NCBI RefSeq assembly: GCF_000741285.1
Contig: NZ_JGZE01000011.1
Coordinates: 113-64,112 of the forward strand
DNA from: Bifidobacterium mongoliense DSM 21395
Lineage (GTDB): Bacteria; Actinomycetota; Actinomycetes; Actinomycetales; Bifidobacteriaceae
Direction of reading: 5' to 3'
DNA length: 64,000 nt
Shown here: positions 50,208-53,440 of the stretch, piece after piece
Layout: every line of letters starts with the position of its first letter
How positions within the stretch are numbered: position 1 is the first letter of the stretch
Made by a program: the position numbers and the translations under genes
The notes under the pieces: model-generated
Told to the model about the DNA's origin: nothing
Seen by the model: only the letters and a program-made list of their open reading frames with translations
Database searches by the model: none

Positions 50208-50555
50208 TTATTCGTAATCCGGAATCCACCCATGATGGTGCATGTCCAGCCGCTTGACCAACAGCTCCTTGAGCTCGGACTCGCTACGGCGTTCCAGCAG
50301 CATGTCCCAGTGCGTGCGGGTCGGTTTGGTGATCTCATCGGCCTCGCGGTCATTCTCACCCTCGCGGTGCGCGGTCAAGCCGCAACGGCACTCCCACTCG
50401 TCCGGAACCTCCGCGTCCTGCGCGAAGGGCAGAATCGTACGGTGACCTTTGGGGCATACATACGCCACATCCGTACGTGCTGCGAAATCGACATTGTCGT
50501 CCGACTCCAACGATTTCGCACCGATGCTCATACCACGCAAACTGCGTTCAGCCAT
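50208..50555 (-). CDS. rbpA: RNA polymerase-binding protein RbpA
   Basis: Actinobacterial transcription factor that binds RNA polymerase and the housekeeping sigma factor and stabilises open complexes. The 115 residues start ERSLRGMSIGAKSLE; the core has potential zinc ligands Cys 34, His 38, Cys 56 and Cys 58 (the usual C-x-x-C is C-x-C here); the sigma-interaction domain THWDMLLERRS and ELKELLVKRL ends it. AAGGAGGC precedes the ATG. A SigR/SigH-like promoter lies upstream, and a HAD gene follows 6 nt later. Confidence 0.96.
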   Translation of the reverse strand: MAERSLRGMSIGAKSLESDDNVDFAARTDVAYVCPKGHRTILPFAQDAEVPDEWECRCGLTAHREGENDREADEITKPTRTHWDMLLERRSESELKELLVKRLDMHHHGWIPDYE

Positions 50556-50616
50556 TGATCATTGCCTCCTTGGGCGATGTGCTCCCCATCATGCATTATT
50601 CCTTACCACGCTACAG

Positions 50617-50643
50617 AACAGTTCGGACGAGGCCGGTATTCCC
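50617..50643 (-). promoter_or_regulatory. SigR/SigH-type promoter of rbpA
   Basis: On the minus strand GGGAAT (50643-50638), exactly 18 nt of spacer and GTT (50619-50617) fit the consensus GGGAAT-N18-GTT known for the oxidative-stress sigma factors SigR of Streptomyces and SigH of mycobacteria, which control rbpA there. The start of transcription would lie some 50 nt before the rbpA ATG. Confidence 0.6.
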
Positions 50644-50671: not shown

Positions 50672-53440
50672 TCAATCCTCCACGCCTGAATACGAGACGA
50701 CGCCGCGGAAGACGAGTCGGCGTGCGGCCATGGCGGTGTCGGCGAGTGTGGGCGAAGCCTGCGGGCAGTAGGGCGCCGCGACGGCGATCTGCTGGAGCAG
50801 GTCGGCGAGACGTTTCGCGCACCGTACGAAGTCACCGCCGGTCAGTTCGCTGTCGCGCAGCACATCGGTGAGGTCCGCTCCCCCGGCCCACGCGTGAATG
50901 ATCGACACCAGACCGAAGTCCAGCGTGCCCGTGACCTCCAGATCGGCGTCGTGGCAACGATCCGCGACCCTCCCCGCGATGTCGCGCAGTCCTTCGCAGG
51001 CCAATGCCACCCGGCCGGTCGGGCCGCCCGGATAGCCGTCGGGTTCCCCACCCGAACCGCGGCGCGCCTCGTAGACCAGCGAGGACAGGGTCGAAGCCAG
51101 TTCGCGTGGGTTGAGATGGTCGAGCACGGTGGTGGTGACCGCTTGGGCGAGTACCAGATCATGCTCGCCGAACAGTCGTCTGAGCAACTCCCCCCGCGGT
51201 GTCAGTGTCATATCCGACCGAGTCATATCCCCGGGTGCCGTGTCCGGCTTGGTGCAGGCATGGTCGGGTGCGTCGTGCCGTTCGAGATACCCCCAGGACG
51301 ACAGGATCTCGCAGATACGGTCGAACTGGCGCGCCACGGAACCGGTGCGGGTCCGGTAGCGCTCCTCGAGGCGTTCGAGTTCCGACTCCTCGCGGTTCCA
51401 ACGGTGGCCCCAGGTCATATGGGTGGCGAGGTCGGGGCAATCGTGGCACGGATGATCGCGATCTTCGGCACGTAGCGTGTTGATGCGCCGATCCAGGTCA
51501 CGCAGCGCCTCGGTGCGTGCGGAGGTGGAGGAGAACCGCTGCCGCTTGAGCTGCTGGCGCTCCCCGTGCTCCAGATCGTGGAGTCGGCGCCGGATGAGCA
51601 GCAGCTCCCTGAAATCGCCGTATTCGCAATGGAACGCCCGTTCGTACCCGGCCACCGCATCGCGCAGGGTGGTGATGCGGGACTCGAGCTGCCAGGAGGA
51701 TTCGTTCGCCTCCCACTGGGCGAAGGATTGGTCGAGGGTGGCGCGCGCCGTCGCGTAATCGCTGTTGGCCAGCAGATTCGCGGCCATGTTGAACGTCGCC
51801 TTGAAACTCGAATGCAGGGGGTAGACGCGCTTGCTCGACAGCGAGACGAGCGCCGCCGGCGCGAAGTCTCGGTGGTCGACCACCACGGCATGACCCAGGG
51901 TGTCGATGCCCCGTCTGCCGGCTCGGCCGGTCAACTGGGTGAACTCCCCCGGGGTCAGCATGACATGCTCGCTGCCGTTGAATTTCTCAAGCTTTTCGAC
52001 GACCACCGTCCGCGCCGGCATGTTGATGCCCAGGGCGAGGGTCTCCGTGGCGAAGACCATTTTGACCAGGCCTAATTCGAACAGATGTTCGACGATGCTG
52101 CGGAACAGGGTGACCAGACCGGCGTGATGCGGAGCGAAACCCTCCTCGAGCGCGTACCGGAATCGGGAGAATCGCAGCGCTTTGAGATCGTCGTGGGACA
52201 TCTGGCCCTCGACCATCGCATCCACAATGCGTCGGATGCGCAACGCCTCGTCATGCGTGGTGAGTTCGAGCCCTGCGTCCAGGCACTGTTCCACGGCCTT
52301 GTCGCAGCCGTTGCGCGAGAAGATGAAGTAGATGCCCGGGAGCATGCCCATGTAGTTGAGTTCGTCGACGACGGCCCACCGCCGCGGCGTGTGACGCTGC
52401 GCCACCGGCGCATGCTCATGTTCCCGGCCATGCGGATGCCGGCCGTGACGCGAGCGTTCAGGACGCACGGCCCTGGCCCGACGCGTCACCTGCGGGTCCA
52501 GCTGTTCTAGCCGCCCGGCCAGCGCGGGATTGACCGCGTCCTTGACCCCGTCGCGGTTTTCGTGGCGGTACAGGTCGATGAGTTCCGGTTCGGTGTGGTC
52601 GTCCGCCTGCAGCAGCACATGCTGTTGCAAGGGCACCGGTCGGTGCTCGGAGATGACCAGATGGGTGCTCCCCCGCACCGAGGCGATCCAGGAGGAGAAG
52701 TCCTCGACGTTCGAGACGGTCGCCGACAGGCCTATGACGCGTACCTGCTTGGGCAGCTGGACGATGACCTCCTCCCAGACCGGCCCGCGGAAACGGTCGG
52801 CGAGATAGTGGACCTCGTCGAGTACGACGTAGCGCAGCGCCTGGAGCGTGGTGGAACGCTCGTAGATCATGTTGCGTAACACCTCGGTGGTCATCACGAC
52901 GATATCCGCCTCGGCGTTGATGGAGATGTCCCCGGTGAGCAGACCCACCCGGTCGGCGCCGTAGCGGTCCACGAGATCGTGGTATTTCTGGTTGCTCAGC
53001 GCCTTGATGGGCGTGGTGTAGAACGCCTTGACATTGCGCTCCTGAGCCAGGAAGATGGCGAAATCGGCCACGACGGTCTTACCTGCCCCGGTCGGGGCCG
53101 CCACGAGGACGTTGTCCCCGGATTCCAACGCTTCGTTCGCTTCACGTTGGAAGTCATCGAGCTCGAAGGGGGCCTGGGCCTCGAAGCGGCCACAGGCGGA
53201 ATCGTCGTGCCGCAGTCGGTCGCGGAAGTCCTGATAGCGCTGCGATGGGCTGCGTTCCGAGGTCGACGATGGCTCGGAAGCATGAGCATGGCGCGATACC
53301 CGACGCCGCTGGCGTTCGGCATGGTCATGCACGCCGCCATCGGATGATGATGGTGTGACGGGGGTATCCCCCGTCACCGCGGTGCGGTCGTCGATATGCG
53401 ATGCCGCCCGGTTGTGCTGATGATGACGATGATGAGTCAT
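50672..53440 (-). CDS. helY: Ski2/Mtr4-like DEAD-box RNA helicase HelY
   Basis: Large RNA helicase (922 residues) of the HelY family. Motifs: Walker A APTGAGKT near 116-123, VVLDEVHYL (DEVH), SATVSN (motif III), and in the second RecA domain AETLALGINMPARTV-like segment FATETLALGINMPAR and QLTGRAGRRG. The C-terminal third is the helical DSHCT-like part. The N-terminal 70 residues are His/Ser-rich, and a loop (about 325-365) is Arg/His-rich; neither has a known function. In mycobacteria helY lies near pafBC and tatAC, the same general setting as here. Confidence 0.94.
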   Translation of the reverse strand: MTHHRHHQHNRAASHIDDRTAVTGDTPVTPSSSDGGVHDHAERQRRRVSRHAHASEPSSTSERSPSQRYQDFRDRLRHDDSACGRFEAQAPFELDDFQREANEALESGDNVLVAAPTGAGKTVVADFAIFLAQERNVKAFYTTPIKALSNQKYHDLVDRYGADRVGLLTGDISINAEADIVVMTTEVLRNMIYERSTTLQALRYVVLDEVHYLADRFRGPVWEEVIVQLPKQVRVIGLSATVSNVEDFSSWIASVRGSTHLVISEHRPVPLQQHVLLQADDHTEPELIDLYRHENRDGVKDAVNPALAGRLEQLDPQVTRRARAVRPERSRHGRHPHGREHEHAPVAQRHTPRRWAVVDELNYMGMLPGIYFIFSRNGCDKAVEQCLDAGLELTTHDEALRIRRIVDAMVEGQMSHDDLKALRFSRFRYALEEGFAPHHAGLVTLFRSIVEHLFELGLVKMVFATETLALGINMPARTVVVEKLEKFNGSEHVMLTPGEFTQLTGRAGRRGIDTLGHAVVVDHRDFAPAALVSLSSKRVYPLHSSFKATFNMAANLLANSDYATARATLDQSFAQWEANESSWQLESRITTLRDAVAGYERAFHCEYGDFRELLLIRRRLHDLEHGERQQLKRQRFSSTSARTEALRDLDRRINTLRAEDRDHPCHDCPDLATHMTWGHRWNREESELERLEERYRTRTGSVARQFDRICEILSSWGYLERHDAPDHACTKPDTAPGDMTRSDMTLTPRGELLRRLFGEHDLVLAQAVTTTVLDHLNPRELASTLSSLVYEARRGSGGEPDGYPGGPTGRVALACEGLRDIAGRVADRCHDADLEVTGTLDFGLVSIIHAWAGGADLTDVLRDSELTGGDFVRCAKRLADLLQQIAVAAPYCPQASPTLADTAMAARRLVFRGVVSYSGVED

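Follow-up and report, generated by a model that had tools for sequence, protein, structure and literature searches.

The nearest described counterparts of the system considered here are the SigR and SigH sigma factors of other actinobacteria. In Streptomyces coelicolor, SigR, an ECF factor of the same family as the bifidobacterial one, acts directly on rbpA, as verified in vitro, and the sigA equivalent hrdB is listed as SigR-controlled (PMC9205884); SigR is needed for the maintenance of HrdB (PMC5742136). Further targets in S. coelicolor are trxB and the gene of SigR itself, whereas no such site was seen at trxB or sigH in bifidobacteria. The partner of SigR, RsrA, is a ZAS protein, which the bifidobacterial neighbor of sigH is not. 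ZAS proteins are defined by the motif HxxxCxxC, and Cys11 is required for redox sensing (PMC4960319).

Corynebacterium glutamicum SigH resembles the bifidobacterial factor in its control of heat-shock genes, HspR and ClgR, with dnaK and clgR among the reported targets, but it also induces trxB, trxC, msrA and the mycothiol genes (PMC3489674), and its partner RshA differs in having a ZAS domain. Mycobacterium tuberculosis SigH recognizes GGAAYR-N17-GTT and has dnaK and clpB in its regulon, as is predicted for bifidobacteria, but neither rbpA nor Rv2050 is mentioned in the main text of that report (PMC4803200). The sequence-only reading of the locus described below had placed rbpA under SigR/SigH in both Streptomyces and mycobacteria. 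The first attribution stands for SigR (PMC9205884); for the mycobacterial gene the controlling factor is given as SigE, not SigH (PMC6344877).

Among the bifidobacteria, RpoE (BL1357) and BL1358 of Bifidobacterium longum NCC 2705 are an ECF sigma/anti-sigma pair associated with heat and bile responses, BL1358 being termed a putative anti-sigma factor (PMC10059941). From family and gene order, rather than sequence comparison, we take this pair to be the same system as sigH and the cysteine-protein gene discussed here. The genes controlled by bifidobacterial RpoE were said to need investigation, and its regulon was called unknown in 2022 (PMC9004370).

The rbpA promoter and the ECF factor of B. 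mongoliense

The window, a 64-kb stretch of Bifidobacterium mongoliense DNA, carries the only PF13397 match in the 2.17-Mb genome, an rbpA gene whose nearest named relatives are those of Bifidobacterium species (Table 1). A helicase-like frame (50672-53440, minus strand) precedes it, leaving a gap of 116 nt. Within this gap, as the sequence-only reading had pointed out, the minus strand reads GGGAAT-N18-GTT (50643-50617, GGGAATACCGGCCTCGTCCGAACTGTT), with 61 nt between the GTT and the ATG at 50555. Read as GGAATA-N17-GTT (50642-50617), the site is an exact fit to the consensus GGAAYR-N17-GTT obtained experimentally for M. tuberculosis SigH (PMC4803200). The exact GGGAAT-N18-GTT occurs once in the window, and at least one copy was found in 30 of 100 dinucleotide shuffles (mean 0.32), so the letters of the motif alone are weak evidence. 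It is position and conservation that raise the rbpA motif above chance.

Table 1. Coordinates of rbpA, its predicted promoter elements and sigH in B. mongoliense
Feature	Position	Strand	Basis
rbpA, RNA polymerase-binding protein, 115 aa	50208..50555	-	PF13397, E 9.2e-40, 135.9 bits against a cut-off of 25
AAGGAGG, rbpA ribosome binding site	50565..50571	-	direct sequence reading
GTC-N5-TGTT-NN-GTA-NNN-T, second block overlapping the predicted SigH -10	50608..50628	-	0 matches in 100 window shuffles
GTT, predicted -10 element of SigH-type promoter, 18 nt after GGGAAT	50617..50619	-	fits M. tuberculosis SigH GGAAYR-N17-GTT (PMC4803200)
GGGAAT, predicted -35 element of SigH-type promoter	50638..50643	-	GGAATA invariant in 21 aligned relatives (GGAAT by row choice)
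sigH, ECF sigma factor gene	G000:C10:168221-168805, outside the window		only ECF factor in genome

Two proteins of the genome match sigma-70 region 2, namely SigA and one ECF factor, so that the SigH-type factor called for by the sequence-only reading is indeed at hand. The best family for the ECF factor is TIGR02947 (SigH_actino), which leads 97 families by about 92 bits (186 against 94 for the next); the 186 bits lie below the curated cut-off of 251.55. The protein is thus best described, as far as profile scores can tell, as a diverged SigH/SigR relative and no formal member of TIGR02947. Among solved structures, M. tuberculosis SigH is the closest (143 bits), with SigE at about 80. No SigH-type site was seen in any of 39 regions upstream of sigH, giving no sign of autoregulation. 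Since the sigH promoters of C. glutamicum are also SigA-type (PMC3489674), autoregulation is not a strict criterion. The sigH match in G. swidsinskii contains an internal TAA.

Conservation of the rbpA site and co-occurrence with SigH

Twenty-seven rbpA upstream regions from Bifidobacteriaceae were readable (the window, L002-L026 and L038; L027 was excluded because of a contig end). GGAATA-N17-GTT was present in 21 of them and not found in L009, L011, L012, L013, L024 and L038. When the 21 were aligned on the motif, GGAATA, GTC, TGTT, TA and two more single positions were identical in every row; the rows had been picked by GGAAT-N18-GTT, and those letters are identical by selection while the others are not. 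The spacer is mostly variable.

On the scale of the family, an anchored pattern was counted, consisting of GGAAT-N18-GTT placed 33-63 nt before an rbpA-like start (ATGGCNGA) and scored by pattern, not per gene. It occurs in 140 of 189 Bifidobacteriaceae genomes, against 3 of 189 for a reversed control pattern. A SigH-like ECF protein was matched in 170 of the 189; in four of these (genus g4) the matches are weak, with E about 1e-17, and may represent another ECF factor. The anchored pattern was found in 140 of the 170 SigH-positive genomes and in none of the 19 that lack SigH (Fisher p 3e-13, uncorrected for shared ancestry). Together with the 21 of 27 upstream regions, these numbers support the SigR/SigH-type promoter proposed by the sequence-only reading.

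In Galliscardovia (L021) the rbpA site is present at a distance just beyond the anchored pattern. Thirty SigH-positive genomes lack the pattern; of 11 that were inspected, four have no site, one has no visible rbpA and in G035 the match lies far upstream, while the other five carry a site with a spacer of 17 or at a different distance. Conversely, rbpA was located in 16 of the 19 SigH-less genomes, 15 of which have no GGAAT-N17/18-GTT upstream of it; in the SigH-less G209, GGAAT-N18-GTT lies about 164 nt from the rbpA start codon. Three Gardnerella-type genomes with SigH (L009, L012, L013) have the site at sigA and clpB but none at rbpA. Decay of Gardnerella SigH was considered and rejected, the site being intact at both genes in all three.

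Outside the family, GGAA[TC]-N17-19-GTT precedes rbpA in 49 of 53 actinobacterial loci (24 of 53 with T), and the controls gave few matches: 5 on the antisense strand, none with spacers of 25-27 and one with spacers of 8-10. A SigH/SigR-type rbpA promoter therefore appears to be widespread in actinobacteria.

Other predicted targets and the gene behind sigH

The sequence-only reading had suggested that the motif could be used to find the rest of the regulon, and it led to four further genes. GGAATA-N16-18-GTT has 22 matches in the B. mongoliense genome against 12 for a reversed control, a modest excess, and five of the 22 precede rbpA, sigA, clpB, clgR and dnaK. The comparison of upstream regions drew on at most 19 genomes, of which 18 have SigH (the genome itself and 18 of 25 named genomes; 11 for dnaK and groEL). 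Among those bearing SigH, the strict GGAAT-N17/18-GTT was found at rbpA in 14/18, sigA in 17/18, clpB in 18/18 and dnaK in 10/10; clgR has it in 11/15, or 14/15 once a spacer of 19 is accepted. Shuffling predicts 0.15 to 0.60 strict matches per gene set. The antisense control gave none in the clpB, sigA and clgR sets and two for trxB, and groEL, a further control, has no site in 11 genomes. In Pseudoscardovia radai (G023), which has no SigH match, none of the five genes has the site. It was also not found at sigA of Bifidobacterium reuteri, even in a further 1.2 kb, and clgR itself was not found at E 1e-20 in the Gardnerella-type genomes L114, L115 and L116.

Two other patterns were tried and set aside. 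The broad GGRAW-N19/20-GTT is too loose, with at least 309 matches in the genome. GGGAAY-N17/18-GTT gave 46 matches against 26 in the control; among the matches listed, the new ones lie mostly within open frames and there was no clear new stress gene.

In B. breve, HspR regulates dnaK, clpB and clgR (PMC6244367), and control of these three genes would consequently be shared between SigH and HspR. Upstream of dnaK in B. mongoliense (L153, G000:C4:13042) and in several of the loci L314-L323, the SigH-type site directly adjoins an inverted repeat. This repeat resembles the HspR operator HAIR.

The genes of thiol metabolism present a different picture. In the upstream regions read at trxB, ahpC-trxR, trxA and msrA, strict sites are absent from trxB (0/19 genomes) and from the promoter region of 13 ahpC-trxR operons; the lone match in these operons is some 460 nt away from ahpC on the upstream side, within another open frame. 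There is one match each for trxA (1/10) and msrA (1/8), both in B. asteroides. The trxA gene of B. mongoliense itself has a match with spacer 16.

Of 55 sigH loci, 39 were examined for a downstream gene. A short frame lies behind sigH in 34, mostly with start/stop overlap, and a 35th (L099) was recognized by eye; no such gene was found at three Gardnerella-type loci (L114, L115, L116) and on one cut contig. The encoded proteins have a conserved end, FDPxxCCDxxExAxIxxLRxYLRPxxAPECLxxRLxxTLDxCC. In 18 aligned sequences the residues F, C, E, I, L, R, P, A, P, L and D are invariant, so that one cysteine is shared by all 18. The position of the gene suggests an anti-sigma role. The zinc motif HxxxCxxC of RsrA and RshA is present in none of the 34 sigH neighbors, searches of Pfam and NCBIfam did not find the ZAS family, and a profile search of the PDB gave only a weak, unrelated match. 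With one cysteine invariant, redox sensing through some other arrangement is conceivable for this predicted protein. At one locus (L133, G141:C3:716-1285), SigH and the small cysteine protein are joined in a single frame of 339 aa, which is either a natural fusion or an assembly error.

Weighing the readings

That the rbpA motif is a mere chance match is an idea with next to no standing. It could appeal to the frequency of the motif in shuffled windows, and is refuted in practice by conservation, since orthologous positions are kept and the site is lost together with SigH. A second alternative concerns the block that overlaps the predicted SigH -10 (Table 1). Its TAGCGT (50608-50613, minus strand) fits the sigma-A -10 pattern TANNNT, and across rbpA loci the block reads GTC-N5-TGTT-NN-RTA-NNN-T. 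A looser form, GTC-N7-TT-N3-TANNNT, is kept upstream of rbpA in 8 of the 16 SigH-less genomes that have the gene (5/5 in the same genus, 3/4 in g11, 0/7 in the others). This persistence suggests that the SigH promoter at rbpA overlaps a putative housekeeping promoter. It could also be taken to mean that a sigma-A promoter drives rbpA and that the GGAAT box is part of another regulator's site. We consider this quite improbable, because the GGAATA box co-occurs with SigH and is invariant in the 21 aligned motif-bearing relatives (with only its final A independent of row choice), and because no sigma-A -35 is visible, alignment positions 6-11 being variable. The assignment of the rbpA promoter to SigH is well supported by these comparisons of sequence, and SigH and housekeeping promoters may coexist at this gene.

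The remaining alternative is a classical thiol-stress system of the SigR/RsrA type that happens to include rbpA, which is close to the meaning that the sequence-only reading had given to the motif. The orthology of the sigma factor, the conserved cysteines of the neighboring protein and the strict matches before trxA and msrA in B. asteroides are in its favor. The thioredoxin genes, where further copies of the motif had been anticipated, have no conserved site, and with trxB and the ahpC-trxR promoter region bare and HxxxCxxC missing from every sigH neighbor, neither the thiol-stress interpretation nor the RsrA-like anti-sigma factor sought alongside it found support. In B. longum exposed to oxygen, trxB1 is up at 30 min, and induction of clpB is listed for the 60-min point only (PMC6244367); that clpB is induced by oxygen speaks for a thiol response, and the difference in timing speaks against it and fits separate control, though it is no proof. 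On balance we regard a thiol-stress regulon as unlikely. A regulon for proteostasis or heat is more likely than one for disulfide stress, judging by the lack of a conserved site at thioredoxin, AhpC and MsrA genes.

The preferred reading is that the rbpA site is a promoter read by a SigH/SigR-type ECF holoenzyme, and that SigH drives at least five operons, those of rbpA, sigA, clpB, clgR and dnaK; we hold this to be probable. Stress would free SigH, probably from the small cysteine-rich protein encoded directly behind sigH, and free SigH would then bind and transcribe the five operons. RbpA and SigA would rebuild the housekeeping holoenzyme, while ClpB, DnaK and the ClgR-controlled Clp proteases would handle damaged protein. 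Most likely, the SigH regulon has been reduced to the maintenance of RNA polymerase and protein quality control. A more far-reaching proposal is advanced only tentatively. In Bifidobacteriaceae, SigR/SigH may have been converted from a disulfide regulon to one for holoenzyme repair and proteostasis; the thioredoxin branch would have been dropped, and a lineage-specific cysteine protein (FDPxxCCD...LRPxxAPECL...LDHCC) that senses something else would have taken the place of RsrA, or would be RsrA itself altered past recognition. The SigH box at rbpA would then have been laid over an older, SigH-independent promoter core.

These results provide a short, testable list of targets, rbpA, sigA, clpB, clgR and dnaK, for the one widely conserved ECF factor of the bifidobacteria, and they single out a putative anti-sigma factor that lacks the known zinc-based redox switch. 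A study by Kim et al. from 2012 reportedly described SigR orthologues in actinomycetes and predicted regulons in 42 species, through which part of the bifidobacterial target list may already be in print. The upkeep of the housekeeping RNA polymerase appears to stay with SigH even without a thioredoxin branch, and its persistence there suggests that this function is an old core of the SigH regulon. If the regulon was indeed converted, the sigma factor would rebuild its own competitor, SigA with RbpA, along with ClpB, DnaK and ClgR.
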